Positions 3,731 through 35,833 of a stretch of 49,808 nt of DNA are shown here, piece by piece (position 1 is the first letter of the stretch; every line of letters starts with the position of its first letter). This DNA comes from an uncultured Lachnoclostridium sp. (GTDB lineage Bacteria; Bacillota; Clostridia; Lachnospirales; Lachnospiraceae): positions 1-49,808 of the forward strand of contig CAMIWE010000010.1 of assembly GCA_946402335.1 (NCBI GenBank). The letters run 5' to 3'. The position numbers and the translations under genes are program-made. The notes beneath the pieces were generated by a model. That model saw nothing but the letters and a program-made list of their open reading frames with translations. It ran no database searches and was not told where the DNA came from.

Positions 3731-3750
3731 ATTTGAAGGAGGGTTGCTGT

Positions 3751-6700: not shown

Positions 6701-7818
6701 AAACCGCTGAAGAAACTGTTGAAGATGTTGCGGAAGCAGTTGAGGATAAAGTTGAAGAAGCCACGGAAACGGTTGAAGAAACTGTAGAAGATATAGCTGA
6801 AACAGTTGAAGATAAGTACGAAGAAGTAACCGAATCAGTTGAAGAAACGGCTGAAGAAGTTACAGAAACGGTTGAAGAAACTGTTGAAGATGTTGCGGAA
6901 ACAGTTGAGGATAAGGTTGAGGAAGCCACGGAAGTAGCTGAAGAGACTGTCCAAGATGCTGCTGAAACGGTTGAAGAAACGGCTGAAGAAGTAACCGAAA
7001 CAGTTGAAGAGACTGTGGCAGCAGTTGAGAATGCGGTTGAAGCAACCGAAGAAACTGTCGAGGAGACAGCGGAAGAGACTTCTGAAGAAACCGCAGAGGA
7101 GACTTCCGAAGAAACTACCGAGGAAACTGCTGAGGAAACCACGGAAGAAACCGCAGAGGAGACTGCAGAGGAAACTACCGAGGAAACCGTTGAGGAGACC
7201 ACGGAAGAAACCGCAGAGGAGACTTCCGAAGAAACTACCGAGGAAACCGTTGAGGAGACCACGGAAGAAAACACAGAAGAAACTGCTGAGGAAACCACGG
7301 AAGAAACCGCTGAGGAGACCGCTGAGGAGACCGCAGAGGAGACCGCAGAGGAGACTTCCGAAGAAACTACCGAGGAAACCACGGAAGAAACTGCTGAGGA
7401 AACTGCTGAGGAAACCACGGAGGAAACCTCCGAAGAAACTTCTGAAGAAAATGCTGAAGAGATTCCTGAGGAGCCTGCACTGGTTGCGGAGGAGCCTGCA
7501 CTGGTTGCGGAGGAGCCGAAGCCGGTTCGCGAGACGAAGACCATCTCGTATAAGAACGGCAACCGTTATGCCGGTCAGGTGAATGAGAAGGATCTGCCGG
7601 ATGGTGTCGGTATTTATACATATGCAAACGGCAGCCGCTATGAAGGAAGCTTCCGCGCAGGTATGCGTGACGGTGTCGGCCGCTTCACCTGGTCCACCGG
7701 AGACTACTATGAGGGTGACTGGAAGGACAATAACCGTCACGGAAACGGACGTATGGTATTTGTCAGTGGCCGGGTACGGGAAGGTCGCTTCGTGAACAAT
7801 GAGTTTAAGCCCGAGTAA
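3751..7818 (+). CDS. Giant MORN-repeat protein with acidic 11-mer and 4-mer repeat regions
   Basis: A 1355-residue protein without signal peptide or membrane segment, so probably cytosolic. It opens with a four-cysteine zinc-ribbon-like knuckle (C6, C9, C20, C23). Three MORN blocks follow at about residues 45-180, 678-818 and 1264-1355, with motifs such as YEGDFYDGRRQGIG and YEGSFRAGMRDGVG. Between them are very acidic regions rich in E, T, V and A: hendecads at 452-583 and 864-1094, and [TAVS]EET tetrads from 1099 on. A charged helical stretch (about 195-240) and a disordered acidic linker separate block one from the first repeat region. The ATG at 3751 is seven bases after AAGGAGGG; the TTG at 3733 precedes that site. 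The next genes encode a tyrosine phosphatase, an adaptor and a BY-kinase, suggesting a scaffold at the membrane or cell surface machinery, which is inference. I do not recognise this architecture. Confidence 0.85.
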   Translation: MAELLCIVCKENKAGGDGLCVKCRFKMNTQQETAPLEEQELLLPEGRYYGKTRNGIPNGRGELTYNEGDSRKYYRGEFKDGMRHGKGKLVFRNEAYYDGEWVHDKYDGYGEESLPGGNVLEGYYEQGRLISGHVFFGDGREYDGEWSNDLPNGMGKMFFHDGHAEEGFWINGVCAFREKPDDEQIQSFLRKQEELARQEEEELAEENERRRLAKEKRDRMIAQLREQQAAQKEGGDRFYAAEPVSDVEDEINNAIRGTKPEDENAEEEAETEVSAPDVDVNGVSEEQPAEASEEQSVEPAEEVTSEKTDGPVSDEAAEENDENYLIPDQPVEKEEFEEKAKEEAPVAVFMRDGFPPAYEENPAEDSFLETALYKPGDEFPSFDALFDDEEEEKQPAEETKPTETPIVIEDNTIYGDDGMSAEIVYDSPIESPVPTVSYGRTADNMEETVNEAVEEPVEEAVEAVEETTEEVAEAVAETAEETNEAIEETAETVEEAAENVEETAEEAAEAVADTVEEATEVVEEAMETVPETVDEVAEKVEETIEEVTEKAEETVDTAEESVEQTAKAIEEAFEEITANAETAEVAETAEEVKEETTEAVEATEEVKEETTEAVEATEEVKEEVAEAFADTAEETKEEAASTETAAEEVKEAIPETVAETVKEENNEKPAEPLGKTGYFSETYANGQMYEGDFYDGRRQGIGLMIYPNGDIYEGGYYAGKRHGQGVLTYGNGSIYEGNWENGMKSGQGKFTKKSGESYQGNFEAGAFSGHGILRYENGDVFEGEWSNNRQNGEGLMIYADGTREKQVWENGVKISAEPYVDETVKEEPVADAIVAPVTEDVVADAIVAPVAEDVIAPVEQIAETVEETVEEVTENAEEVSEEVAETVEETVEEVKEAAEETVEEVTEAVEETAEETVEEAIETVEEVTETVEESVEDVTETVEDKDEEVAETVEETVEDIVEAVDEKVGDVTEAAEETAEEVTETAEETVEDVAEAVEDKVEEATETVEETVEDIAETVEDKYEEVTESVEETAEEVTETVEETVEDVAETVEDKVEEATEVAEETVQDAAETVEETAEEVTETVEETVAAVENAVEATEETVEETAEETSEETAEETSEETTEETAEETTEETAEETAEETTEETVEETTEETAEETSEETTEETVEETTEENTEETAEETTEETAEETAEETAEETAEETSEETTEETTEETAEETAEETTEETSEETSEENAEEIPEEPALVAEEPALVAEEPKPVRETKTISYKNGNRYAGQVNEKDLPDGVGIYTYANGSRYEGSFRAGMRDGVGRFTWSTGDYYEGDWKDNNRHGNGRMVFVSGRVREGRFVNNEFKPE
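5104..5499 (+). repeat. First hendecad region in the MORN gene
   Basis: About twelve imperfect 33-bp units encode 11-residue repeats such as AVEEPVEEAVE and AVEETTEEVAE. The register of small and charged residues shifts after the third unit but the 11-residue spacing holds. An acidic right-handed helical rod is likely. Confidence 0.65.
5518..5622 (+). repeat. 42-bp tandem repeat in the MORN gene
   Basis: GAAGTGAAGGAAGAA begins at 5521, 5563 and 5605. The first two units are followed by identical sequence to the next unit; the third is partial. Each unit encodes 14 residues (EVKEETTEAVEATE). Near-identity at synonymous positions suggests a recent in-frame duplication. Confidence 0.85.
6340..7032 (+). 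repeat. 21 consecutive 33-bp units encoding hendecads
   Basis: Twenty-one units of 11 codons run without a register break, for example TVEETVEDVAE, TVEDKVEEATE and SVEETAEEVTE, covering residues 864-1094. Position 2 is V or A and the unit usually ends in E. DNA of the units differs at many third positions, so the array is older than the 12-bp array that follows it. Confidence 0.85.
7045..7452 (+). repeat. 34-copy 12-bp array encoding [T/A/V/S]EET tetrads
   Basis: Thirty-four consecutive four-codon units encode TEET, AEET, VEET or SEET (two end in N instead of T). A 60-bp higher-order repeat is visible: 7141-7200 and 7201-7260 differ only in a short stretch in the middle. All units are multiples of three, so copy-number changes by slippage would keep the frame and alter protein length. 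Confidence 0.85.
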
Positions 7819-22886: not shown

Positions 22887-23247
22887 ATCGAGTGATGCGG
22901 ATGATCGCGCCGGCTTAGCCGGTGAGGAAAGTCCGGGCTGCACAGGGCAGGGTGCCGGATAACGTCCGGTGGAGGCGACTCCAAGGAAAGTGCAACAGAA
23001 AAGAAACCGCCGTCTTCGGACGGTAAGGATGAAATGGCAGTGTAAGAGACTACCGCTTCTCTGGTAACAGAGGAGGCTGTGTAAACCCCACTCGCAGCAA
23101 GACCGAACAGGGAACGATACGGCTGCCCGTCGTGTTCCCGGGTGGGTTGCGTTCCGCTTTCGGAAGGATGCGGAGGAACTGCATGGCAACATGCAGTCAA
23201 GACAGATGATCATCTTCGACAGAACCCGGCTTACAGCATCACTCGAT
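22887..23247 (+). ncRNA. rnpB: RNase P RNA, class A
   Basis: The catalytic RNA of RNase P, which trims tRNA 5' ends. The conserved 5' core GAGGAAAGTCCGGGCT and the 3' core ACAGAACCCGGCTTA are both present in the right order. Helix P1 is visible as ATCGAGTGATGC (22887-22898) with GCATCACTCGAT (23236-23247). The internal AGGAAAGTGCAACAG is also typical. P1 is followed by TTTT, so it may help end transcription. Length is about 361 nt. The layout matches class A rather than the Bacillus class B, but this was judged by eye. Apparent minus-strand frames here are not genes. Confidence 0.93.
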
Positions 23248-23266
23248 TTTGAATTGGGAGAGAAAC

Positions 23267-24448
23267 ATGCTTCGTAAAATGACGGAAGAGGAAATACGCA
23301 TCCGCAGGATGGAGAATCTTCGGATGGTATCCTTATACGAGTTTACCGATGCCGTACGAACGTCGGACGCCGCCCGGGCGAAAAAGGGCGGAAAGCCGGC
23401 CGGATGTACGGCTATAACGGTTTTGTGCGATGAAGGAGAACAGTTCACGTTAAGCGAACTGGACCCGTACTTCGAAGAGCTGGCCGAGCAGGTCATGAAA
23501 CTCTACGAGGAAGCCGAAAACCGTGACTCGATTTTAATGAATCCGCCCACGCGGGCCGTTCTGGAAGCGGGAATCACTTCCGGTGAAGAGCCGTTTCTGA
23601 AACCGTTTTTCGAACTTCAGGGAGTACGTACACCGGCGATTCCGTTTGCATCCCGCCTGGGGCTTCGGTTTCTGCCGCTTACCGTATATCTGGTCAACGA
23701 ACTGGAAGGGCTGATCGGCCGGAACGGAACGGTTGTCGGACAAACCGTCGGCTGGAGAGGAAAAGCGGTCCTTCGCCTGAAGGTGCTTCGCGCCATTACC
23801 GAACATCCGGTGATCATCCGGCAGGTATCGGACGGGGAACTTCGGATTTCGGTCGGAAACTATCCGCGGAATCTGGAAAATCTGACTATGGATATCGTGG
23901 TGGATGCCGAACGGATCGAGATCTCATTTGCCGCGGAGAAGATGGAACTTTCCGGGCATTGGGGCCTGTTCTTCGGCATGAAGGAGATGGAATCGAGAAT
24001 TTCCGTTAAGATTAAGGGACGGGAAGTCAGTTACGAAGTAAAGAAATACACGCCCTCCCCGGAAGGACTTAAGGACGAGGAGCGTAAACTTTTGCAAAAA
24101 GGCGTTGAGCCTTCCGTCGTATACCGCCTTCCATGGGGCATGGTATATGCGCTCGGCGAGAAGGAGGAACTTCTCGGAAATGTGCAGAAGAAGACCTATT
24201 TGCGGACGATTCTGAGTCCGGATGCGGAATACTCCGAAACGGTCAGCTGGACGATGATACGGAATCAGGAAACCGGCGTCATCCTTAAGAAGAACAATCT
24301 GTGTATGCTCCGCATGCTGTTAAAGGACGGACGCGTGCAGACATTCTTCGGAAACAGCGGGGGAGGAATGAGCGGACGTTACCGCACTTCATTGGCAGAC
24401 AAATACTATATTTCGCAGGCAGGGGAACAAAATGGGACTGATCAATAA
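23267..24448 (+). CDS. Uncharacterised protein at head of the MoxR/TelA module
   Basis: A 393-residue protein that I do not recognise. No signal peptide or membrane segment is visible. The N-terminus is helical and charged (KMTEEEIRIRRMENLRM) and contains a small hydrophobic domain; the middle has LPLTVYLVNELEGLIGRNG and a strand-rich region (IVVDAERIEISFAAEKMEL) that could be a beta-sandwich. The ATG at 23267 has GGGAGA upstream; the in-frame TTG at 23249 is part of the rnpB 3' end. Its 3' end overlaps the AAA+ ATPase gene by 17 bp, so the two are coupled and it is probably an accessory or adaptor of the ATPase. It sits 19 bp after RNase P RNA with no clear promoter of its own. Confidence 0.8.
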   Translation: MLRKMTEEEIRIRRMENLRMVSLYEFTDAVRTSDAARAKKGGKPAGCTAITVLCDEGEQFTLSELDPYFEELAEQVMKLYEEAENRDSILMNPPTRAVLEAGITSGEEPFLKPFFELQGVRTPAIPFASRLGLRFLPLTVYLVNELEGLIGRNGTVVGQTVGWRGKAVLRLKVLRAITEHPVIIRQVSDGELRISVGNYPRNLENLTMDIVVDAERIEISFAAEKMELSGHWGLFFGMKEMESRISVKIKGREVSYEVKKYTPSPEGLKDEERKLLQKGVEPSVVYRLPWGMVYALGEKEELLGNVQKKTYLRTILSPDAEYSETVSWTMIRNQETGVILKKNNLCMLRMLLKDGRVQTFFGNSGGGMSGRYRTSLADKYYISQAGEQNGTDQ

Positions 24449-26732
24449 TAAAAAGAACAACGATCCGGATGAGCTTAGGTACGACAAATTATACGAATTG
24501 CTCGACAATGAAAAAGCGCCCAAACTGAAGGCGCTGTTTCAGGAACTGAAGTATTATCACGAGAATCCGGAATTGTGTCCGATCAAGCCGTTCGGACTGT
24601 ATCTCGAGGTTCTTGAGCGGATTTCAAACAACACGACGAACTTTCGAAAGGTTGTATGGGGCGACGTCATGAAATATGCGGTCAGCATGTATGCGCATAT
24701 GTTCGTGCTGGAAGAGAGAACGCCCGATTTTACGAACCTTTCGATTCTGTATGCCTCCATGTTTGAGCCGAACAACATGGTGGCTTTGTACGGATTTATC
24801 CCGACGCTGTTCCATCTGTTTACGGACAAGCTGAACTATGTCCGCTGGGGAATGTCGTTTTTAAAGAACAAGTTTTCCCAGGATGAACTGGATGCGATCA
24901 CGGATTTCGGTACGAAGATCCGTCCGTACTGCGCGGAAGAGGACCTGTTTACGGCCGAACTGATCCAGTACAGCCGCCGGATTGCGGGCGGAGAAGACCC
25001 GAAACAGATTGCGGAGCAGGAATACGAAAATATGCGCCGCATGAGCGGTGTTTACGATGTTTCCGAGGAGCGCATTCTGGTCGCCGAGCAGAAGCTTGAT
25101 ATGGTGCAGGCTTCCCTTGACCGTCTGCAGGATTCCCTGAAACTTTCGACGGAACGCGCAGACATCCTGGTCGGCCTTTCCGACAAGATCATCAAGGACG
25201 TTGACAAGCATTGCAAGGCCGAAGTAAGCAACGCAAAGGAAATGGTCGAAAACCTGACGCGCGAGATGGGCAAGAGCCACAGCGACTTCATGGAAGCCCA
25301 GCGCAAAGAGGTGCTTGCGGATAAGGACATGCTTGTAAACAGCGTGATCACGGATAGCAATGAAGCCCTTCGTTCCCTTAAGAAGGAAATCGATTCCGTC
25401 GTGCAGAGCGCCCGCAGGGACATCCTTCGGATCAACCGCGAATCCGGTGACGTGATCACCCGGGTGGAGGAGTATCTGTCCGGAAATGAGCGGATTAAGG
25501 ACATTCTTGCCGACGAGACCTTCTCGAAGGAACTGAACGATAAGATTGACCATTTGATGGACATCTACGAAGAAAATATGAAGGCGAAAGAGACGGTAAC
25601 CGTACTCGAGTCCGTTCCTTCCGCGACCGTAACGAAAAAGGGCGGAAAGAACATGCAGACCGTTCCGGTTACGGCGGTTTCGGGATCCGTAGCTACGGTT
25701 GAGTACCAGACGGCTCCGTCCATGGAAATGCCTCCGGCATCCGTGGTCGTTTCCGCGTCTGCGGTCGAGGAAACCATGAAGCCCACGAGCGTTTTGTTAG
25801 ATGAATCCGTCAGCTTCAAGGACCGCCTTGCCCTTGCCATGAAACGCAAGAAGGAAATGATGAAGAACGGCGTGCATTTCCATAAGATGTTTGACGATGT
25901 GCTTGTTGCGGTTATGGAAAATGCGAACCCTTACCTGATCGGGCCTTCCGGCTGCGGCAAGACCTTTATGGTGCAGCAGATCGGCGACATTCTTGATGTG
26001 GAAAGTGTTGATATCGGCTATATCAACGAGGAATATGACATTCTCGGATTCCAGACCGCGAACGGCGGCTACAGCTGCCCGAATTTCTACCGCTGTTACA
26101 AATATGGCAAGATTGCGTTTTGTGACGAGCTTGATAACGGTAACAGCCGCGCCACGGTCAAACTGAATTCGTTCCTTTCCAATACGACCAACGGCATGTA
26201 CAGCTTCCCGCACGGTGAACGTGTGGCCCGTCATCCGAACTTCCGGATCATTGCCGCAGGCAATACGACCGGTAACGGCGCGGATGCCAACTACAGTACC
26301 CGTGAGAAGATCGAGGAGTCCGTTCAGCAGCGTTTTACGCCGATCTTCGTAGGATATGACAACGAAGTGGAGAAGAGCATTCTGAGCGGCTTTAACAACT
26401 GGTACTCATTTGTCTGCGCTTTCCGCGAAGCAACCAATGCGTGGACGAAATATTCCCGCTCCGGCGCACCCGGAATCATCACGACGCGTGACGTTACGAG
26501 AATCCGTAAATACCTGGAGAACGGAAGCTTTAATCAGAATAAGATCATTGAATACGAGTTCGTTCAGACAAAGGACCCGGATTACCTGGCATTTCTCGCA
26601 AAGGAAATGCGCAGAACCATTGAAGAAACGAAGATTCCGGATCCGTCCTATAACTGCAACACGCTGTATAACATTTTTGCTAAGCGCGTGAAGGATATCT
26701 GCGACGGCCTGGATAAGGACAGAATCTATTAA
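24432..26732 (+). CDS. MoxR-like AAA+ ATPase with N-terminal helical and coiled-coil region
   Basis: A 766-residue protein. The N-terminal 210 residues are helical without a recognised domain. Residues about 215-385 form a long coiled coil (heptads around KLDMVQASLDRLQDSLKLS and EALRSLKKEIDSVVQSARRD). A Pro/Ser/Val-rich linker (about 390-455) leads to an AAA+ domain of the dynein-related MoxR/CobS class: Walker A GPSGCGKTF at 504-512, Walker B IAFCDELDN with D565 and E566, then FRIIAAGNTTGNGAD as sensor 1. Such ATPases usually work with VWA-type partners as chaperones; a likely partner is encoded next. AGGGGA precedes the ATG. Cellular role unknown. Confidence 0.85.
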   Translation: MGLINNKKNNDPDELRYDKLYELLDNEKAPKLKALFQELKYYHENPELCPIKPFGLYLEVLERISNNTTNFRKVVWGDVMKYAVSMYAHMFVLEERTPDFTNLSILYASMFEPNNMVALYGFIPTLFHLFTDKLNYVRWGMSFLKNKFSQDELDAITDFGTKIRPYCAEEDLFTAELIQYSRRIAGGEDPKQIAEQEYENMRRMSGVYDVSEERILVAEQKLDMVQASLDRLQDSLKLSTERADILVGLSDKIIKDVDKHCKAEVSNAKEMVENLTREMGKSHSDFMEAQRKEVLADKDMLVNSVITDSNEALRSLKKEIDSVVQSARRDILRINRESGDVITRVEEYLSGNERIKDILADETFSKELNDKIDHLMDIYEENMKAKETVTVLESVPSATVTKKGGKNMQTVPVTAVSGSVATVEYQTAPSMEMPPASVVVSASAVEETMKPTSVLLDESVSFKDRLALAMKRKKEMMKNGVHFHKMFDDVLVAVMENANPYLIGPSGCGKTFMVQQIGDILDVESVDIGYINEEYDILGFQTANGGYSCPNFYRCYKYGKIAFCDELDNGNSRATVKLNSFLSNTTNGMYSFPHGERVARHPNFRIIAAGNTTGNGADANYSTREKIEESVQQRFTPIFVGYDNEVEKSILSGFNNWYSFVCAFREATNAWTKYSRSGAPGIITTRDVTRIRKYLENGSFNQNKIIEYEFVQTKDPDYLAFLAKEMRRTIEETKIPDPSYNCNTLYNIFAKRVKDICDGLDKDRIY

Positions 26733-26753
26733 TCCTAAGCGGGAGAAAACGGT

Positions 26754-27665
26754 ATGAGTGAGACATTTGATGCCCCGCCGTATGAGTTTTTAAGTATCCG
26801 GAAGATCCGAAGCATGACCATATACCATCTGGTATTTGAGTCCATGTTGGAGATTGAAAGGTTCTTAGAGAAGAATCCGCCGATCAATACCGACAGTTTT
26901 TCCATGATGATGAGCGCCAAAGCGGACGAGGATTTCGCCGGTCCGCCGCTCCCTCAGGCAATCGCGTACTGCTCGGGCGGATATCAGGAGGGGCTTAAAA
27001 ACTTCATGCAGATGAGCAGGCAGATGGAAGCCATTACCTGGCAGTCCTACCGCCAGAGAACCGCCGCCCCTGCCATTGTCGGAAGCCGGCCGAACGTCCC
27101 CGCATATATTGCCGGGGAGCCGAAGAGTATGTACCGTCTGTCGCGATCGGTTGAGAAAAAGGTCATAAAGATGTTTATGAACCTCAGTTACAACCGGAAC
27201 ACGACCGAGGGACAGATTCTTGTGCGCGGCGTATTGACGCTCAATCTGATCCAGCTGCTTGAGCAGAACGGATATATTGTGGATTTCCGTGCCGTTACGG
27301 CAAGCACGGAGAAAAATGAGACCTTTATCTGCGAGATCCGGATGAAAAAGCCGGGTGCCAAGATAGACATCGGAAAGGTTTTCTATCCGATGTGCGGCAA
27401 GTCTTTCTTAAGGCGCGTAATATCGCGGCTGAAGGAATCCATGCCGTTTGAGCAGGAGTGGGGGTCCACTTACGGCAAAGTAGCCAATCAGGATTTCTTA
27501 AGGGCAGTCCTGAACATTGATAAATCATCGCTTTTTATCGGAACGCCCCAGGAGATGGGAATCATCGGGAAAAACATCCTTGAAGATGCGGACGCATTTC
27601 TCGGTACCCTGAATCTCGGTAACCGGATTGCCGTTCCGAAGTATAATGTGAGCAAAGAGAATTAA
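26754..27665 (+). CDS. DUF7192-like partner protein of the MoxR ATPase
   Basis: A 303-residue soluble protein. The segment QSYRQRTAAPAIVGSRPNVPAYIAGEPKSMYRL, given here as QSYRQR, GSRPNVPAYIAGEP and MYRL, followed by MFMNLSYNRNTTEGQIL and a hydrophobic LTLNLIQLLEQNGY, resembles the DUF7192/CobT-like proteins that accompany CobS-like ATPases in phages and bacteria. That family keeps a Rossmann-like VWA shape without a full metal site; here the DxSxS motif is replaced by NLSYN. The assignment is from memory of the family pattern. It lies 21 bp after the ATPase gene and is probably its adaptor or substrate receptor. Confidence 0.6.
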   Translation: MSETFDAPPYEFLSIRKIRSMTIYHLVFESMLEIERFLEKNPPINTDSFSMMMSAKADEDFAGPPLPQAIAYCSGGYQEGLKNFMQMSRQMEAITWQSYRQRTAAPAIVGSRPNVPAYIAGEPKSMYRLSRSVEKKVIKMFMNLSYNRNTTEGQILVRGVLTLNLIQLLEQNGYIVDFRAVTASTEKNETFICEIRMKKPGAKIDIGKVFYPMCGKSFLRRVISRLKESMPFEQEWGSTYGKVANQDFLRAVLNIDKSSLFIGTPQEMGIIGKNILEDADAFLGTLNLGNRIAVPKYNVSKEN

Positions 27666-27685
27666 CGGATTGTAAGGAGCCGGGG

Positions 27686-28723
27686 ATGAACAAAGACAAG
27701 GAAATCGAATATCTGAAAGTCATTGCGGATAATCCGACGCTGGAGCTGGATGCGGCGGATATTCCGAAGATTGAATCGAGCATTGCGGAACTGAACAGTA
27801 ATGATATCAACAGCATTACCAAGTACGGACTGGATACCCAGAAGAAGATGGCGGAGATTTCGCAGGTTATGATCAACAACCTGAACAATTCCTCCATCGA
27901 CGAAGTGGATGACACGCTGAAGGAAACCATCAGTTATCTTTACGGGATCGACAGCGATGACAACGACCGCCGGATTCTGTTCTGGAAGCGCAAGAACGAT
28001 ACCGTGGCCATCCGCAAAAAATACGACCAGGCGTCGAAAAACGTCGATCAGATTGCAAAGGCGCTTGAGGACCATCAGGTTCGTCTGATCCGCGACTGCG
28101 CGTTTTTAAATCAGATGTACGACATGAACCAGGAGTATTTCCGCCAGGCCGGCATCAAGATTGCCGCGCTTAAGATGAAGACCGACGAGATCCGCTCCAA
28201 ACGGAGCCTTGCCGAGAACGCCGTGGAGGATTCCTGGATCAACAACATCATCGACCGGCTGGAGAGAAAGGCTGTAGAACTGGAGCTTTCCCGCACCATT
28301 TCGATGCAGCAGGCATCCCAGATCCGTATGTTGCAGACCAACTTTGCGATTATGGCGGACAAACTGCAGTCCACCCTTTACAGTACGATTCCTCTTTGGA
28401 AAAACCAGATCATTCTTGCCCTTGGCGCGGAGCATGCCCGTCAGGCTGCCGTTACCGACAAGAGCATCAATGAAATGACCAACCGTCTTCTGATCCGTAA
28501 CGCGGAAAATCTGAAGATGGTAACTGCCGAAACCCAGCGCGCCGCAGGCGATGCTTCGATTGATCCGAAGACGCTTGCCGAAACCAACCGCCTCCTGATC
28601 GAGAGTCTGGATGAGGTTGCCAGAATCCAGTCCGAGAACAAGAGCAAACGTGACGACGTGGAGCGGGAACTGGAACGGATCGGACAGGAGATGAAATTCG
28701 GCGTTCTGCTGGAAGATAACTAA
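27686..28723 (+). CDS. TelA/KlaA family toxic anion resistance protein
   Basis: A 345-residue helical protein. The C-terminal half has the family pattern: RIMLQTNFAIMADKL-like region (here IRMLQTNFAIMADKLQ), TIPLWKNQIILALG, then NEMTNRLLIRNAENLK, and ESLDEVARIQSENKSKR near the end. TelA proteins are linked to tellurite and other toxic anion or envelope stress resistance, with an unknown mechanism, and often sit beside AAA+, VWA and TPM proteins. It is 20 bp downstream of the DUF7192-like gene, in the same operon. Confidence 0.88.
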   Translation: MNKDKEIEYLKVIADNPTLELDAADIPKIESSIAELNSNDINSITKYGLDTQKKMAEISQVMINNLNNSSIDEVDDTLKETISYLYGIDSDDNDRRILFWKRKNDTVAIRKKYDQASKNVDQIAKALEDHQVRLIRDCAFLNQMYDMNQEYFRQAGIKIAALKMKTDEIRSKRSLAENAVEDSWINNIIDRLERKAVELELSRTISMQQASQIRMLQTNFAIMADKLQSTLYSTIPLWKNQIILALGAEHARQAAVTDKSINEMTNRLLIRNAENLKMVTAETQRAAGDASIDPKTLAETNRLLIESLDEVARIQSENKSKRDDVERELERIGQEMKFGVLLEDN

Positions 28724-28734
28724 GCTTTAACGCA

Positions 28735-28749
28735 GCCCGCTCTGCGGGC
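28735..28749 (+). terminator. Short GC hairpin after telA
   Basis: GCCCGC-TCT-GCGGGC follows the telA stop codon. There is no T run, so it is more likely a weak attenuator or RNA 3' protector than a full terminator. The next gene starts 45 bases on with its own GGAGG. Confidence 0.35.
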
Positions 28750-28793
28750 AGGATTGGGATTTCAGGAGAGTCGGCATATCGGAGGAACAAAGC

Positions 28794-30422
28794 ATGCTTT
28801 ATTGCCCGGAATGCGCCAACAAAGTGCTTTATGACATCGAGTCGAAGACGATGCGGTGTTCTAAGTGTATGCAAAAATTCTCCTTTGACCAGCTGGAGAC
28901 AATCCGAAGAAACAAGCGCCTGCAGCAGAAGGTGGAGCATCTGGCCGACAGCCTCGAACAGCGTCCGGAAGGCCTGATCCTGCCGGAGGACCGCGGCATA
29001 GAGGTTACCCTTTATCACTGCCCGGAATGCGGCAGGGATATTGTCGCCGATGAAGACGAAAAGGTCACCGGATGTTCCTATTGCGGCTTTGACGGGGATT
29101 TGGTTCCCCGGCATGGAGGAATTCACCGCCCCCAGGGCATTATTCCATTTGCCGTAACCGAACAAAGCGCAAAAGAGCAGTATAACAAAGTTGTCCGGTG
29201 GCAGATTTACCGTCCTACCGGACTGATCCATAAAGCGAATAACGGCGGATTCCGCCCGGTTTATATGCCATTTCGCTCGTATACGGTCAAACGTGCGGGC
29301 TTTTTTGAGTTTATCGGTGTTACGCGGGAAGCCGGCGAGACGCAGACGACGATATATTCGTATTACAAAGTGAACGGCCGTATGAAGAGCGAGTACAGCG
29401 GACTTCTTTCAACGGCTACCGATACGATGGACAACCAGGTCGCCGGCCAGGTAATGCCGTTTAAACAGGGAGACGTTGTCCCGTTTGATGAGTTTTATCT
29501 GAACGGCTATTATGCTTTTCCGGAGAACAAAGTGGAAAAGGCTGCCCGCAATGAAGTTTTAAAGATTGAGCCCGAGCTGGTATTAAGGGATGCGAAGGAA
29601 GAATTCGTGGATATCGGTCTTGACCTGAAAACGGCGAGAAACCAGCTGATCGGCCAGGAGGGAACCAATGTCGAGGTCGAAGAGCGCGTGGATATGAATC
29701 CGGTATGGTATATGCCGTTTCGGATGGGTAAGCGCGTCAGCTTTGCCATGGTGAACGGCCAGACCGGAAAAGTCGCGACCGACATCCCGGTATCCAAGCG
29801 GAAGTTCTTTGTATTTTCCCTGCTGACGGCAATTCCGCTGTTTCTTTTGTTCCAGAAGATTGGAAAGACGACGCCGTCTTATCTTTATTTTGCTATCGTT
29901 CTGGCGTCCATGATCATGTCCTGGATCTGCTCCATGCAGGTAAAGGACATCTTCAAAAAGAAGATTAAGCTGAACCTCCCGTTCCGGGAGAGCAGAATCG
30001 CGGCCGGATGCAGCTGGGGCGTTGCTCTTTTCGGTGCGTTTTTATTGCTTTGTTACGGACACGCGGATGGACTGCGAAACATGTTTCCGGACAGTGTACT
30101 GCATTATGCGGAAGTCTACCGCAGGGTCTACTGTCTGCTGGCAGTCGGAATGGTTGCGTTCCGGTTCTGGGAGATGAAATCGACTTATCAGGCGGTCAAT
30201 GAGCTGCAGCTTACGAAACCGAACGTCATATTTGTCGTAATATCTACTCTGGCAACCGTTTTGTACTGCTTAAACGTACCGGCGACCATTGCCTATTACC
30301 TGCTGGCGCTTGCCATGGCGGGGTATCTTGTCACCGCCGTAATTTATATGATCGATACACATAACCTGCTGGATTCCATTCTGCCGAAGGTGCAGATCGC
30401 GGAAGGAGGCGAGGAAGCATGA
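28794..30422 (+). CDS. Double zinc-ribbon multi-pass membrane protein (copy 1)
   Basis: A 542-residue protein. Two zinc ribbons occupy the N-terminus: CPECANKV...RCSKC (C4, C7, C22, C25) and CPECGRDI...GCSYCG at about 75-100. A soluble domain follows (FAVTEQSAKEQYNKVV, VYMPFRSYTV, LNGYYAFPENKVE), then about six membrane segments from residue 335 to 520. Automatic pipelines sometimes call such zinc ribbons 'TFIIB-type' or 'PriA-like', but there is no helicase domain. It closely parallels the protein at 33304-34908. It overlaps the downstream lipoprotein gene by ATGA. Function unknown. Confidence 0.8.
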   Translation: MLYCPECANKVLYDIESKTMRCSKCMQKFSFDQLETIRRNKRLQQKVEHLADSLEQRPEGLILPEDRGIEVTLYHCPECGRDIVADEDEKVTGCSYCGFDGDLVPRHGGIHRPQGIIPFAVTEQSAKEQYNKVVRWQIYRPTGLIHKANNGGFRPVYMPFRSYTVKRAGFFEFIGVTREAGETQTTIYSYYKVNGRMKSEYSGLLSTATDTMDNQVAGQVMPFKQGDVVPFDEFYLNGYYAFPENKVEKAARNEVLKIEPELVLRDAKEEFVDIGLDLKTARNQLIGQEGTNVEVEERVDMNPVWYMPFRMGKRVSFAMVNGQTGKVATDIPVSKRKFFVFSLLTAIPLFLLFQKIGKTTPSYLYFAIVLASMIMSWICSMQVKDIFKKKIKLNLPFRESRIAAGCSWGVALFGAFLLLCYGHADGLRNMFPDSVLHYAEVYRRVYCLLAVGMVAFRFWEMKSTYQAVNELQLTKPNVIFVVISTLATVLYCLNVPATIAYYLLALAMAGYLVTAVIYMIDTHNLLDSILPKVQIAEGGEEA

Positions 30423-31120
30423 AGAGACTGATTTGCGGATTGCTACTTGTCCTGCTTGCGGTTACGCTTTCGGGCTGCGGTACGGAAGGAGAATATGCCG
30501 GAACCGTTAAGATTTATTATGTGAACGGAGATGCGGACACCGCCAGGTATCATCTCACAAAGGACGAAAAGATTCCGAAAGCGGCGAAGGGGTTCGACGT
30601 TATTGTTGTCATTGAGGGAACGGATTATGAAATCGAGACGTCGGCCGAAGACCGGCTGGATGTTTATCTGACAAGGGATGCGGTCCTCGTGGAAATCGAT
30701 CCCGATAAGAAGGAAACCTGCATCAAAACCCGCGGAACGGCGGCCAAAGCCCTCAGCGGCGGACAGTGCCGCACCATAGCGGACAATACCGTTCCGGCGC
30801 TTATAAACGGCGATGTAGACGGAGCGTGGACCGAAGCTGTGAAGGAAATCTATAAGGCTGCGGAAGGAAAGGCACTTTCGCCCAATGTGCTGCAGATCAC
30901 GGTCAGTATTGTGACCGCGCTGTTATTCGGTCTGCTGCTCAATGTGATCCTTCTGCGGTATCTTAGCAGCAAGCAGAAATCAATGGTGGAAAATGTTACG
31001 AAGGCACCCGTCGGGAAAGCCAAATTCCTTCGGGGCAAGACGGATGTACGCCTGCGTTACGATAACAGCGGATTAGACGAAACGCTGATCGGAACGGTTT
31101 GGAATTTCTTCCGGGATTAA
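30419..31120 (+). CDS. Divergent TPM-domain-like lipoprotein (copy 1)
   Basis: A 233-residue protein with a lipoprotein signal: hydrophobic LLLVLLAVTL and lipobox LSGC. The extracytoplasmic part resembles a degraded TPM (YgcG/Psb32) domain: GTDYEIETSAEDRL, LTRDAVLVEIDP, and GQCRTIADNTVPALINGDVDGAW. A C-terminal membrane segment (SIVTALLFGLLLNVILLRYL) and a short cytosolic tail follow. The same order of parts is seen in the better-conserved TPM protein at 34895-35656. It lacks the Gly/His-rich tail of that protein. Coupled to the zinc-ribbon membrane gene by a four-base overlap. Confidence 0.65.
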   Translation: MKRLICGLLLVLLAVTLSGCGTEGEYAGTVKIYYVNGDADTARYHLTKDEKIPKAAKGFDVIVVIEGTDYEIETSAEDRLDVYLTRDAVLVEIDPDKKETCIKTRGTAAKALSGGQCRTIADNTVPALINGDVDGAWTEAVKEIYKAAEGKALSPNVLQITVSIVTALLFGLLLNVILLRYLSSKQKSMVENVTKAPVGKAKFLRGKTDVRLRYDNSGLDETLIGTVWNFFRD

Positions 31121-31124
31121 TCAC

Positions 31125-31153
31125 TTGAGGGAATGGGATATGTGTGATATACT
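31125..31153 (+). promoter_or_regulatory. Promoter of thrC
   Basis: TTGAGG (31125-31130), 17 bp, TATACT (31148-31153), with TGA directly before the -10 as an extended element. It starts a leader of about 85 bases in front of threonine synthase and separates thrC from the upstream module. Confidence 0.7.
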
Positions 31154-31246
31154 ATCCCCGATTTATTATGCAATATGATATTCCTCATACATGTCCTGCG
31201 GCGGGAAGCCCGGGGCGATGGAGGATGGAAAGAAGGATATATACCG

Positions 31247-32749
31247 ATGGACATTTTATACCGGAATACGAGAGGACTGGGCAGCGAGGTAACGGCCTCA
31301 CAGGCAATTCTTAAAGGACTGGCCGAGGGCGGCGGACTGTATGTGCCCGTTAAATACCCGAAGCTTGAAAAGAGCCTTTCGGAACTTGCAAAGATGGATT
31401 ACAGAGGCGTGGCTTACGAAGTCATGAAGCTGTTCTTTACGGATTATACCGAAGCGGAACTCCGCGGCTGCATCGAGAAAGCTTACGATGAGAAGTTCGA
31501 CACGGAGGAGATTGCTCCGATGGCCGAGGCGGACCATGCTTATTATCTTGAGCTGTTCCACGGGCAGACGATCGCGTTTAAGGATATGGCTTTGTCCATC
31601 CTGCCGCATCTGCTTACGACGGCTGCGAAGAAGAACAACCAGAAGGACGAGATCGTTATCCTGACGGCTACCTCCGGCGATACCGGAAAGGCTGCTTTGG
31701 CAGGATTTCGTGACGTGCCCGGAACGAAGATCATCGTATTTTACCCGAAGAACGGCGTGAGCCGCATCCAGGAACTGCAGATGGTTACCGAGAAGGGAGC
31801 CAATACGACCGTTATCGGCGTAAACGGCAACTTTGACGACTGCCAGACCGGTGTTAAGAAGATGTTCACCGATGAAAATCTGAAGAAGGATATGGCGGCA
31901 AAGGGGATGGTTTTCTCGTCCGCAAACTCCATCAATATCGGACGTCTGATCCCTCAGGTTGCTTATTATGTATTTGCCTATACAAGACTTCTTGCGGAAG
32001 AGCGCATTGCGGAGGGTGACCCGGTGAATTTCGTTGTTCCTACCGGTAACTTCGGAAACATTCTGGCATGCTTTTATGCAAAGAAGATCGGCCTTCCCGT
32101 TGCAAAGATGATCTGTGCATCCAATGAGAATAAGGTTCTGTATGATTTCTTTACGACCGGAACCTATGATATCCGCAGAAAGTTCATCCTGACGAGTTCT
32201 CCTTCGATGGATATTCTGATCTCGAGCAACCTCGAGCGTCTGATCTACCACAGCGCTGGCGACGATGCCGCAAAGAACGCGGAACGTATGGAGAACCTTA
32301 AGAAGGACGGCGTATATACCGTTACGGAGCAGATGAAGAAGGAAATGGCCGATTTCGTTCCCGGTTTTGCAACCGAGGCGGATACGGCTGCCGAAATCAA
32401 AGAACTGTACGAGCGCACCGGCTATGTGATCGATACCCATACGGCGGTTGCTTCGGCGGTTTACCGCCGCTACCGCAAAGAGAGCGGGGATACGGTTCCT
32501 GCGGTGATCGTTTCCACGGCGAGCCCGTTCAAATTTGCCCGAAGCGTTATGGAAGCAATCAACGGAAAGAAAGATGACCGCGAGGATTTTGCGGTAATCG
32601 ACGACCTTTCGAAGACGGCCAATGTGGCAGAGCCTCCGGCAATCCGTGAGATCCGCACGGCTCCCGTTAAGCATGACACGGTATGTGAAATCGCCGGCAT
32701 GGAGCAGGAAGTACGCCGCGTTCTCAAAATCGGGAAGGCAGAGGTATAA
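31247..32749 (+). CDS. thrC: Threonine synthase
   Basis: A 500-residue PLP enzyme that turns O-phosphohomoserine into threonine. The N-terminal YRNTRGLGSEVTASQAI is typical of the longer threonine synthase class. The PLP lysine is in GQTIAFKDMALSIL, the phosphate-binding region in TATSGDTGKAAL, and NSINIGRLIPQ and PTGNFGN complete the family motifs. The ATG at 31247 has GAAGGAT upstream; in-frame codons back to 31175 lie in the leader. It is inserted between the two copies of the zinc-ribbon/TPM pair and followed by a membrane protein four bases on. Confidence 0.95.
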   Translation: MDILYRNTRGLGSEVTASQAILKGLAEGGGLYVPVKYPKLEKSLSELAKMDYRGVAYEVMKLFFTDYTEAELRGCIEKAYDEKFDTEEIAPMAEADHAYYLELFHGQTIAFKDMALSILPHLLTTAAKKNNQKDEIVILTATSGDTGKAALAGFRDVPGTKIIVFYPKNGVSRIQELQMVTEKGANTTVIGVNGNFDDCQTGVKKMFTDENLKKDMAAKGMVFSSANSINIGRLIPQVAYYVFAYTRLLAEERIAEGDPVNFVVPTGNFGNILACFYAKKIGLPVAKMICASNENKVLYDFFTTGTYDIRRKFILTSSPSMDILISSNLERLIYHSAGDDAAKNAERMENLKKDGVYTVTEQMKKEMADFVPGFATEADTAAEIKELYERTGYVIDTHTAVASAVYRRYRKESGDTVPAVIVSTASPFKFARSVMEAINGKKDDREDFAVIDDLSKTANVAEPPAIREIRTAPVKHDTVCEIAGMEQEVRRVLKIGKAEV

Positions 32750-32752
32750 TCC

Positions 32753-33256
32753 GTGGCTGAATCATTAGTAAACTGGTATAACAATTCCCTCGGAACGTTT
32801 CTGCCGAAGGAAGTGTTCATATTCCTGGTTTCCATGGTGCCGCTCGTGGAACTCCGCGGCGGGTTGATCATTGCGAAACTGCTTGGAATCGGACTGCTGA
32901 AGGCTAATATTATCTGTATTATCGGCAATATCATTCCGATTCCGTTTATTCTGTTGTTTATCAAGAAGATTTTCGCTTTTATGAAGGACCACAATATCTT
33001 AAAGGGGTTCGTTGAAAAGCTGGAGGCCCGTGCAACGAAAAAGCGCGAAGAGGGTGCGGAAAAGGGAGAGTTCCTGTTTCTGTTACTGTTCGTCGGCATA
33101 CCGGTTCCCGGAACCGGAGCCTGGACGGGTTCGTTAATCGCATCGCTGTTTGAATTTGACATTAAGAAGGCTTCCGTTGCCATCTTCCTTGGAATTCTGC
33201 TGGCGGCCCTTTTGGTGAGCATATTCAGCTACGGATTCCTCGGACTTGTGGTATAA
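32753..33256 (+). CDS. COG2426 small multi-drug export-type membrane protein
   Basis: A 167-residue inner-membrane protein with about four hydrophobic segments. The family signature PLVELRGGLIIAK near residue 30 and VGIPVPGTGAWTGSLIA near residue 115 are both present. It starts at GTG with AGAGG upstream, four bases after thrC, so it shares that transcript. Homologues are annotated as small multidrug exporters on weak grounds; the true substrate is unknown. An extended -10-like TGG-TATAAT overlaps its stop codon (33249-33257) and could help express the next gene. Confidence 0.85.
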   Translation: MAESLVNWYNNSLGTFLPKEVFIFLVSMVPLVELRGGLIIAKLLGIGLLKANIICIIGNIIPIPFILLFIKKIFAFMKDHNILKGFVEKLEARATKKREEGAEKGEFLFLLLFVGIPVPGTGAWTGSLIASLFEFDIKKASVAIFLGILLAALLVSIFSYGFLGLVV

Positions 33257-33303
33257 TAGCGGATGCGCTTAGGCGTTATTGAACTTGTGGGAGGAGCGTA
33301 TCG

Positions 33304-34908
33304 ATGGTAGGATGCCCCGGATGCGGAAGCAAGCTGGTATTTGACATTGCGACCCAGCAGATGAAGTGCGTCTACTGCGGGCAGTTTTACCTTGTCAGCG
33401 AGGTGGAAAAGCGATCAAAAGACGCCGAGGAGCATGACGGTCTGCAGGACGATGCGATCATGCAGGCGCAGGATATGGAAGTGACCGTCTTTACCTGTTC
33501 CCAGTGCGGCGCGGAAATCGTAGCCGATTCCGACGAAGCGGTAACCTGGTGCAGTTATTGCGGTTCTCCGGCAACCCTTAAGAGCCGTTTGTCCCGTATC
33601 CGCAAGCCGGAGAGGGTCGTTCCGTTTAAGATTACGAAAGAGGAGTGCGTGGAACGCTACCGCGCAATTGCCAAAAAGCAGTTTTATGCCCCGCATGATC
33701 TTTTAAAACTCGGAAAAGCAGACAGTTTCCGGGGAATCTATATGCCGTTCTGGTCATTTGACGTCAGACGGAACGGGGAATTCCGTTTCCCGGCAAAGAA
33801 AGTCATCACGACACCCAATCAGACCATTACAACCGAATATTTGGCGAAAGGCAAACTGGACGCCCGTCACGAGGGGCTTTCGCATGATGCGTCCCTTTCC
33901 TTTGAGGATGCGATCAGCGAGAAGATTATCCCGTACGAGCAGGCGGGAAAAGTGCGCTTCAGCGAATGCTATCTGAACGGTTTTTATGCAAACGCTGCCG
34001 ACCAGACCGCGGAGGATTGTCTTCCGCAGGTAATGAACATGGAGCGGGCGATGATCGTGGATTCCGCGAAGCATGCCTTTGACGATATCGGACTTTTGGA
34101 GGACAAAGCCGAATCCCAGCTTCATGATAAAGACGCTTATACGATTAATCCGATCCCGAGCATGGATATGTATCCGGTCTGGTTCCTTTCCTATCGTCAC
34201 AAAGACCGTGTATCCTATGCAACGGTGAACGGGCAGACCGGAAAGGTGTACGCGGATTTCCCCGCGTCACCGTTCAAATACCTGTTGTTCTCCCTGCTTA
34301 CGGCGGTACCGGTATTCCTGTTTTTGAATCTGTTCCTGACGGCATCCCCTTCAATCGTGATGTTTTTTGCGATGATCGTAGCGCTTTGCTTCTCCACCAT
34401 GTATAAGCATGAGGTGGAAGATATCTACGAGCGGGTGTTTAGGGTGAACTACAGCGAACAAGACCGGAAGCGCTTTAACATGAAGAAACTGTGGGAAATC
34501 GTGATGACGGTTTTCGTCACGATGTTATGCTGTATTCATGTTGTCATTCTTTTGATCATGGGGCTGAAGCAGCTCGGGTTCTTCGGAACGGATAAAGCCA
34601 GTATCATCTTTTCGGGAGCTTGCGTTGTCCTTTTTGCAATCCGTTTCTTTAAGATGCGCGGCCGCTTTATGGCCCTCACGGAAGTGAAGACCGGACTGAC
34701 CAACGGGTTGTTCCTCCTGGCTTCCATTGTGGCTTTGGTGATGTCGATTGTTCGTCCGGCTGACGATATGTTTTACTATGCGGTGGCATATGCCACAGTC
34801 GGAATCGTCGCATTTTCCGTAGTCAGCCTGATTTCCTGTTATAATAAACTTTCGTCACAGAAGCCGAAGCAGTTCAACCGAAGCGGAGGTGATGATGACA
34901 ATGCGTAA
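33304..34908 (+). CDS. Double zinc-ribbon multi-pass membrane protein (copy 2)
   Basis: A 534-residue protein with the same order of parts as 28794-30422. Ribbon one is CPGCGSKL...KCVYCG (C4, C7, C22, C25) and ribbon two CSQCGAEI...WCSYCG. Shared soluble motifs include YMPFWSFDVRR, CYLNGFYANAADQ and YPVWFLSYRHKDRVSYATVNGQTGK, of which the NGQTGK element is also in copy 1. About six membrane segments follow from residue 325. GGGAGG precedes the ATG. It overlaps the TPM lipoprotein gene by 14 bp. The zinc ribbons face the cytosol if the usual positive-inside rule holds. Confidence 0.82.
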   Translation: MVGCPGCGSKLVFDIATQQMKCVYCGQFYLVSEVEKRSKDAEEHDGLQDDAIMQAQDMEVTVFTCSQCGAEIVADSDEAVTWCSYCGSPATLKSRLSRIRKPERVVPFKITKEECVERYRAIAKKQFYAPHDLLKLGKADSFRGIYMPFWSFDVRRNGEFRFPAKKVITTPNQTITTEYLAKGKLDARHEGLSHDASLSFEDAISEKIIPYEQAGKVRFSECYLNGFYANAADQTAEDCLPQVMNMERAMIVDSAKHAFDDIGLLEDKAESQLHDKDAYTINPIPSMDMYPVWFLSYRHKDRVSYATVNGQTGKVYADFPASPFKYLLFSLLTAVPVFLFLNLFLTASPSIVMFFAMIVALCFSTMYKHEVEDIYERVFRVNYSEQDRKRFNMKKLWEIVMTVFVTMLCCIHVVILLIMGLKQLGFFGTDKASIIFSGACVVLFAIRFFKMRGRFMALTEVKTGLTNGLFLLASIVALVMSIVRPADDMFYYAVAYATVGIVAFSVVSLISCYNKLSSQKPKQFNRSGGDDDNA

Positions 34909-35656
34909 GATTCTGATCCTTTTATGCCTGCTTACGGTGTTCTCCATGACCGCCTGCACAAAGCACGAAAAGCCGACCGAACCGGGCAAGATCATCATTG
35001 ACGATACCGCGAAGCTGCTTCGTGATTCGGATGAGCTCTACAAGCTGTCCATGACGATGGAGAAACTGGCCCAATACGGAAATGTGGGTTTTTGCACGGT
35101 GGAAGACCGCTACCGCCTGAAATCTACAGAAGACTATGCAGTCTCCGCATATTATATGTATTTCGGGACGGAGAGCGGCATTCTGTTTCTGATCGATATG
35201 GAGTATGGGGAAATCTACATCGAGACCGACGGTTATATCGGGGATTTTATCGGGCCCGGCAAGGCGAGAGCCATTACCGACAATGTTTATAAGCTCGCGA
35301 CCAACGGCAAATACTATGAGTGCGCGGATAAGGCGTTCAACCAGGCGCTGACCGTGTTAGAAGGCGGCAGGATTTCCCAGAAGATGAAGTACTATTCCAA
35401 TGCGGCATTTGCCGTGCTTCTCGGGTTCCTTTTAAACTTTATGTTCTTAAGACGTCTGAACCGGAAGCAGGCCGCTACGGCGGAGGAGCTTCGGAAAGCC
35501 AACCGCAGCAAATGTGAATTTAACAACCGGGACATTACGATTGTCAAAAGAGAGGTTGTGAGACACAGTTCCTCCTCGGGAGGACACCACGGCGGCGGCC
35601 GCGGAGGCTTCGGCGGCGGAGGGCACATCAGCCACGGCGGAGGCCACAGATTCTAG
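34895..35656 (+). CDS. TPM-domain (YgcG-like) lipoprotein with Gly/His-rich tail (copy 2)
   Basis: A 253-residue protein. A signal peptide ending in SMTAC (possible lipobox) is followed by a TPM domain at about residues 33-150: IIDDTAKLL, GNVGFCTVEDRY, GILFLIDMEYGEIYIETDG and ARAITDNVYKLATNGKYYE. One membrane segment lies at about 168-188. The C-terminus is rich in Gly, His and Ser (GGHHGGGRGGFGGGGH), as in many TPM proteins. Four start codons are in frame (34889, 34892, 34895, 34901) after GGAGG at 34885-34889; 34895 has the best spacing. TPM proteins act in the envelope, in photosystem repair in plants, and in bacterial stress; the role here is unknown. Confidence 0.85.
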   Translation: MTMRKILILLCLLTVFSMTACTKHEKPTEPGKIIIDDTAKLLRDSDELYKLSMTMEKLAQYGNVGFCTVEDRYRLKSTEDYAVSAYYMYFGTESGILFLIDMEYGEIYIETDGYIGDFIGPGKARAITDNVYKLATNGKYYECADKAFNQALTVLEGGRISQKMKYYSNAAFAVLLGFLLNFMFLRRLNRKQAATAEELRKANRSKCEFNNRDITIVKREVVRHSSSSGGHHGGGRGGFGGGGHISHGGGHRF

Positions 35657-35786: not shown

Positions 35787-35833
35787 AAGCCCACGAGACT
35801 TCAGTAATTTGAAGTTTCGTGGGCTTCTTGTTT
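35787..35833 (+). terminator. Bidirectional terminator between TPM and typA genes
   Basis: AAGCCCACGAGACTTC (35787-35802) pairs with GAAGTTTCGTGGGCTT (35811-35826) with an 8-base loop. TTGTTTTATT follows on the plus strand and TTTTATCA on the minus strand, so it can end both converging transcripts. The rest of 35657-36011 shows no gene; the short frame at 35908-36270 is the complement of typA. Confidence 0.85.

Follow-up and report, generated by a model that had tools for sequence, protein, structure and literature searches.

A four-gene cassette that joins a MoxR-like ATPase and a DUF7192 protein to TelA in an uncultured Lachnoclostridium

Which of the closely packed genes at positions 23267-35656 of a contig from an uncultured Lachnoclostridium sp. 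form one system, and what might that system do? The window analysed here comprises the 49,808 nucleotides of contig CAMIWE010000010.1 (assembly GCA_946402335.1), read along the forward strand. A sequence-only reading had joined a head gene of no recognised family, a MoxR-like AAA+ ATPase, a DUF7192-like protein, a TelA protein, zinc-ribbon membrane proteins and TPM-like lipoproteins into a single system, in which an ATP-driven cytosolic chaperone serves the cell envelope. The core unit is smaller: four genes in the order head, MoxR-like AAA+ ATPase, DUF7192 and TelA, spanning 23267-28723.

All four genes lie on the + strand. The head gene (23267-24448; 393 aa) has no family match in Pfam, NCBIfam, PHROGs or PADLOC and overlaps the ATPase gene (24432-26732; 766 aa; Pfam AAA_5, E = 1.9e-8; PHROG 249, E = 1.6e-32) by 17 bp. 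The DUF7192 gene (26754-27665; 303 aa; Pfam DUF7192, E = 2.8e-22) follows after 21 bp, and the TelA family gene (27686-28723; 345 aa; Pfam PF05816, E = 7.6e-67) after a further 20 bp. The genes, coordinates, overlap and 20-21 bp gaps of the sequence-only reading are thus real. On the left, the insert that contains the cassette is bounded by the RNase P RNA gene rnpB (22889-23249, +; Rfam RF00010, E = 5e-95), whose 3′ end lies 17 nt from the start of the head gene. A consensus scan from 22700 to the head gene called neither a + strand promoter nor a terminator, so the cassette may be read through from rnpB.

The linkage of these genes recurs well beyond the window. Scanning named genomes with an ATPase alignment yielded 80 loci (best of 87; the ATPase is present by construction) from Lachnospiraceae and Oscillospiraceae/Ruminococcus, including Eubacterium ruminantium ATCC 17233 and Ruminococcus albus. 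Where the contig left room, all 76 loci have the head and DUF7192 genes and 68 have TelA, on the same strand throughout; the remaining eight carry a short fourth gene whose family profile matches TelA (best 8.8e-16). Unlinked homologues would have spoken against a common unit, and the four genes are linked in every one of these 76 loci. Median intergenic distances are 3, -1 and 1 nt by automated start calls, and the pairwise distances of the four proteins correlate at 0.72-0.95 across 67 loci, as expected if the genes travel together. Beyond the cassette, the commonest neighbour family reaches 11 of 80 loci.

Within the genus, the head, full-length ATPase and DUF7192 genes co-occur in the same 12 of 22 genomes, a count that includes the window and leaves out short, weak AAA-domain-only matches (~20 bits) in further genomes; all three were absent from the 39 other genomes searched. 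The 11 other carriers keep the order head-ATPase-DUF7192-TelA; of 13 same-genus genomes, the 7 that have TelA are precisely those with the cassette. The arrangement lies far outside what chance would give, since its order recurs both in the 11 further genus genomes and in the genome-collection loci, two sets that overlap (L110 is G008 and L120 is G017). Its setting varies: the cassette follows rnpB in the window and two other carriers, five carriers have it next to an EF-G-like gene (with weak matches to BipA, and with EF-G domains in two of these flanks), and in four it is elsewhere or out of view.

The cassette is carried patchily by gut and rumen bacteria. By the criterion of DUF7192, carriers number 4 among 397 genomes of the family and 1 among 398 of the phylum, and each count includes the window genome. 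Among those 398, the Pfam DUF7192 model and a 12-row alignment each matched the window genome only, which indicates that the cassette is rare and that an evenly drawn sample missed the relatives recovered by the 80-locus scan. A plasmid search gave no DUF7192 match. We found no account of the cassette in the literature searched, which is no proof of its being unpublished, and no publication on DUF7192 there.

The ATPase combines a variable, coiled-coil-like N-terminal half with a C-terminal AAA+ domain at about residues 455-766. Its Walker A motif, GPSGCGKT (residues 504-511; 25941-25964, +), is invariant in a 12-row alignment. By pattern, Walker A is found in 79 of 80 relatives (L176 being the sole one without it), Walker B and sensor 1 in all 80, and an arginine-finger-like QQRF/QSRF in 50. 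Pfam AAA_5 scores above its cut-off and bpMoxR below cut-off only, and the ATPase profile found no solved relative among PDB sequences at E 0.001.

What would such an ATPase act through? DUF7192 is most likely an unrecognised adaptor of the ATPase with a von Willebrand factor A (vWA) fold, the fold being assigned solely from a structure model. The best structural match of that model is the NorD vWA domain bound to NorQ, followed by the metal ion-dependent adhesion site (MIDAS) domain of Rea1. The seven top matches are all NorD or Rea1 entries, and among the 50 matches listed only these two proteins align before residue 118. NorD and Rea1 are vWA partners of AAA+ rings; most of the lower matches, among them Ku70 and integrins, are proteins that contain a vWA domain or one like it. 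The earlier proposal of an ATPase plus adaptor plus TelA gains structural support from this model, whose nearest fold, that of NorD, belongs to a protein that serves a MoxR ATPase as its adaptor. At the sequence level, no vWA model in Pfam matches DUF7192, and its profile drew only two nuclear-receptor chains from PDB sequences (E 0.16 and 1). The MIDAS motif DxSxS, which the vWA partners of studied pairs usually have, is present in 1 of 75 members, and its absence leads us to class the cassette as a variant of MoxR AAA+/vWA pairs outside the NorQD and RavA-ViaA groups.

The model also suggests where contact with the ring might be made. Seven of the 18 invariant columns in the 75-row DUF7192 alignment fall within residues 109-128 (27078-27137, +), a segment predicted to form a finger that enters the ATPase pore. 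The predicted local distance difference test score (pLDDT) is 52-60 over residues 101-130, and this conserved, low-confidence segment lies directly before a strand at residues 136-143, a position and conservation that fit the NorD finger. The available text of PMC13036017 places that finger at NorD residues 403-448, and PMC9976466 describes a single strand joining finger to MIDAS site. The same paper reports that NorQ co-purification was still intact after changes to the NorD MIDAS, which makes a MIDAS-free adaptor plausible.

The ATPase and DUF7192 are also paired in phages, where the window ATPase matches PHROG 249 and the window DUF7192 matches PHROG 1909. Among 50,697 phage records, 266 matched DUF7192 (E up to 1) and 410 matched the ATPase (E up to 0.001). 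We inspected seven phage loci, each chosen through a match of either protein, with Staphylococcus, Rhizobium, Enterococcus, Mycobacterium, Listeria, Lactobacillus and Sinorhizobium as hosts. Both genes are present in all seven, in either order; two small genes lie between them in the Rhizobium phage and a single one in the Lactobacillus phage. None of the seven loci matched the head or the TelA profile. A loose finger-like pattern occurs in six of the seven phage DUF7192 proteins, and in those six DxSxS is absent from the 40 residues that follow it. A scan of viral contigs with DUF7192 confirmed no locus, and one with the ATPase gave eight loci with weak ATPase matches and no match to DUF7192, TelA or head. 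PHROG 249, the family of the phage ATPase (loci L106, L107, L219 and L220), bears the annotation 'porphyrin biosynthesis'. That label is probably misleading, as a DUF7192 neighbour suggests a MoxR-vWA pair rather than porphyrin biosynthesis.

The two genes missing from the seven phage loci, head and TelA, both diverge among the cassettes. Head proteins share 13-49% identity with the window copy, and their mean column identity is 24%, against 47% for DUF7192; the divergence is strong, and the head protein is the best candidate for specificity. Searching 73 head members against Pfam gave just two single-member matches (E 0.005-0.01). The only PDB sequence match, Ran-specific GTPase-activating protein 1 (E 0.01-0.03), was taken as chance, and a profile comparison that would have made the head protein a TelA relative failed. 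TelA diverges and shortens in distant loci: the window protein scores 226.2 bits and the short Ruminococcus albus form 30.8 bits against a Pfam cut-off of 30. A TelA-like fourth gene of ~230 aa occurs at L156, L159, L163, L170-L172, L174, L176, L177 and L179, and in many Lachnospiraceae loci the length is close to 200 aa; TelA has thus been trimmed within the cassette. In Ruminococcus-type loci short TelA relatives take the fourth position. By hydropathy, the head protein, ATPase, DUF7192 and TelA of the window all lack a membrane segment, and TelA found no solved relative among PDB sequences (single match, E 0.26). Lacking membrane segments and always present in some form, TelA is the best candidate for a target or scaffold. 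The available text of PMC12791056 ties TelA to tolerance of tellurite and cell-wall antibiotics by a mechanism described there as unknown.

Taken together, we lean slightly towards the view that the cassette encodes a MoxR-type AAA+/vWA remodelling machine. The ATPase would assemble as a hexamer whose pore receives the DUF7192 segment at residues ~100-131, predicted to enter like the NorD finger, and cycles of ATP would twist the adaptor, which would pass the force on to a target. TelA may be that target or a membrane-side scaffold, and the head protein a substrate-specific subunit. Such a machine might rebuild TelA assemblies or membrane complexes under envelope or toxic-ion stress; we infer both the stress role and the substrate. 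The envelope service proposed by the sequence-only reading would likewise draw on the literature for TelA and for RavA-ViaA, a MoxR/vWA pair that acts at the inner membrane according to the accessible portion of PMC9489729.

Downstream of TelA lie genes whose membership had to be decided separately. After 70 bp comes ZnR1 (28794-30422, +), which encodes a YdjG-like protein with two zinc ribbons (CxxC at 4, 22, 76 and 94) and ~5 hydrophobic segments; it overlaps by 4 bp TPM1 (30419-31120, +), which encodes a YdjH-like TPM-domain lipoprotein (Pfam TPM, E = 1.5e-5; lipobox LSGC). We treat both as accessory. A second pair, outside the cassette, consists of the YdjG-like ZnR2 (33304-34908, +), a resident of the thrC locus, and its partner TPM2 (34889-35656, +; TPM-domain lipoprotein; Pfam TPM, E = 6.8e-9). 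Between the pairs lie threonine synthase (thrC, 31175-32749) and a small multidrug-export gene (32753-33256), on which the sequence-only reading was silent. A strong terminator-like hairpin at 35787-35826 (+), 3′ of TPM2, with 18 pairs and a T-rich tail, probably ends the whole gene run. Elsewhere in the window, a 1361-aa open reading frame at 3733-7818 (+) carries MORN repeats followed by long acidic repeats and shows strong purine skew, and 26 tandem-repeat rows fall within 5086-7527 in the region of this frame.

Neither zinc-ribbon/TPM pair belongs to the cassette core; both pairs resemble YdjG and YdjH, known from the PspA system. The likeness follows the described layout: both window pairs have CxxC pairs, hydrophobic segments and TPM matches above cut-off. 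The double zinc ribbon itself stands in so far as two CxxC pairs occur in each protein, although no zinc-ribbon model exceeds its cut-off. According to the accessible text of PMC11237479, YdjG has two zinc ribbons, a further domain and a membrane segment and is partnered by the TPM protein YdjH, and that of PMC8581546 states that recruitment of PspA and YdjI to the membrane depends on both. The zinc-ribbon membrane partner, which the sequence-only reading took to be undescribed in this role, is thus not new as a type of protein. Pfam found neither PspA nor SPFH among the ten window proteins. The window genome holds four such zinc-ribbon genes, two of them in the window, one near SPFH and DUF6935 genes and one beside a triple TPM protein. 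At L005 of the same genome (3725-7296, -), a Band-7/SPFH protein with zinc ribbons, DUF6935 and a YdjG-like zinc-ribbon protein lie close together; the PspA match of the genome is on contig C9, apart from both this cluster and the window.

Might these genes nevertheless be required partners in one obligate system of six to ten genes, as the sequence-only reading held? We regard this as quite improbable. Downstream of rnpB, thrC, the export gene, ZnR2 and TPM2 are found without ZnR1-TPM1 both in a genome with no cassette (G004) and in two with the cassette elsewhere (G001, G013); in all three, rnpB is preceded by genes that we take from their sequences to be rpoD, a trmK-like gene and a uridine-kinase-like gene. 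ZnR2-TPM2 accompanies thrC and the export gene at L199, L201 and L202 with no cassette at that place, rnpB and thrC being separated by ~400 bp (L199), 33 bp (L202) or 1.35 kb (L201). The idea that ZnR2-TPM2 belongs to the cassette is thereby refuted, and zinc-ribbon/TPM genes are not fixed members. ZnR1-TPM1 has more in its favour, since it lies within the stretch missing at the empty sites. In 8 of 81 loci (the window and the 80, a few of which end too early to show what comes next), spread over two lineages and two distant zinc-ribbon clades, TelA is immediately followed by a zinc-ribbon gene, and three loci (L144, L160, L169) have a zinc-ribbon and/or TPM gene several kb upstream; the other loci have no zinc-ribbon gene directly downstream. 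In a 40-protein tree, ZnR1 sits on a long branch inside the genus ZnR2 clade (clade support 95/99; exact position unsure), so local duplication is likely and ZnR1 is probably a derived paralogue of ZnR2. In a distant group (L153, L154, L161, L165, L188), a zinc-ribbon gene of another clade follows TelA and is itself followed by a gene of a single family, whose L153 copy has neither a TPM nor any other Pfam match. At least two recruitments beside the cassette thus seem to have taken place, suggesting a working link, but the pair is dispensable there in most hosts. The claim of one system accordingly holds for four genes, possibly six, and not for all those named. A YdjG-like zinc-ribbon protein, of either lineage and with a TPM lipoprotein in the window lineage, could dock the remodelling machine at the membrane.

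Three rival explanations, namely defence, metal resistance and assembly of phage origin, are weaker. The first, unlikely in our view, is anti-phage activity or superinfection exclusion, in which ATPase and adaptor would sense or disrupt phage assembly or entry and TelA would form a sub-membrane barrier. It would suit the patchy spread within family and genus and the pairing of ATPase and DUF7192 in phages, and the accessible part of PMC7824862 relates a proposal that TelA-containing Ter systems block incoming phages. PADLOC, however, matched six window proteins in fragments only (E 6e-4 to 2e-2) and gave scattered matches among 89 flanking proteins, with at most three members per model, and the insertion sites identified are housekeeping loci (rnpB-thrC and the EF-G-like gene). 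Rather improbable is a Ter-type resistance to metals or to oxyanions such as tellurite, in which TelA would be the main effector. Its basis is TelA family membership and a Listeria telA mutant that was 2-fold more sensitive to tellurite and 4-fold more sensitive to nisin (PMC12791056, available text, citing Collins 2010). Against this, TerD was found in none of the 13 same-genus genomes searched, on which ground we rejected the cassette as a Ter system, and the head profile matched a profile of four TerD sequences with a probability of 0.3%, by which the head protein was likewise rejected as a TerD relative. We consider it very improbable that the cassette is a phage morphogenesis module that the bacteria have domesticated and that acts on a phage-like particle. 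The phage ATPase-DUF7192 pair is related, and an accessible part of PMC7824862 notes that another phage MoxR-vWA pair has been suggested to act in virion assembly, but the 25 Pfam families listed for the flanks include no phage structural genes, no neighbour family is common beyond the cassette, and the seven phage loci lack TelA and head.

How, then, does the remodelling machine compare with known systems? As in NorQ/NorD, a MoxR-class ATPase gene adjoins its partner, the DUF7192 model is closest to the NorQ-bound NorD vWA domain, and the conserved segment sits at the finger position. In contrast to NorQ/NorD, DUF7192 lacks a MIDAS, the ATPase has a long coiled-coil-like N-terminal half, and two extra genes, head and TelA, are fixed. 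RavA/ViaA and CbbQ/CbbO likewise couple a MoxR ATPase to a partner with a vWA fold (predicted for DUF7192), but DUF7192 matches no Pfam vWA model and the extra partners are different. The phage pair of PHROG 249 and PHROG 1909 represents the same two protein families with shorter ATPases and no head or TelA. The Bacillus subtilis pspA-ydjGHI operon also sets a zinc-ribbon membrane protein beside a TPM protein; it differs in having PspA, which, like SPFH, is missing from the ten window proteins. TelA is shared with the Ter stress/tellurite systems and the xpaC-telA operon, whereas here it is tied to a MoxR-vWA-like pair, and TerD was not detected in the 13 genus genomes searched. The accessible text of PMC7824862 treats both MoxR and TelA, in separate places.

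The engine is thus of a known kind; what sets the cassette apart as new is a predicted adaptor that lacks a MIDAS, together with TelA and head as fixed partners and a pair shared with phages. A more specific and distinctly speculative picture, unlikely in our estimate, is that a MIDAS-free MoxR-vWA machine, with an engine common to phages, builds or dismantles TelA polymers at the cytoplasmic membrane in the manner of ESCRT/Vps4. The head protein would confer specificity on it, and some lineages would add an anchor of the YdjG type drawn from the PspA pathway. Tied into the same operon as an ATPase and the protein predicted to be its adaptor, TelA gains a defined set of partners. If DUF7192 is a vWA adaptor, an unannotated protein beside a phage ATPase acquires a function, and an adaptor without a MIDAS would set apart two functions of MoxR machines, coupling to the ring and binding of the target.
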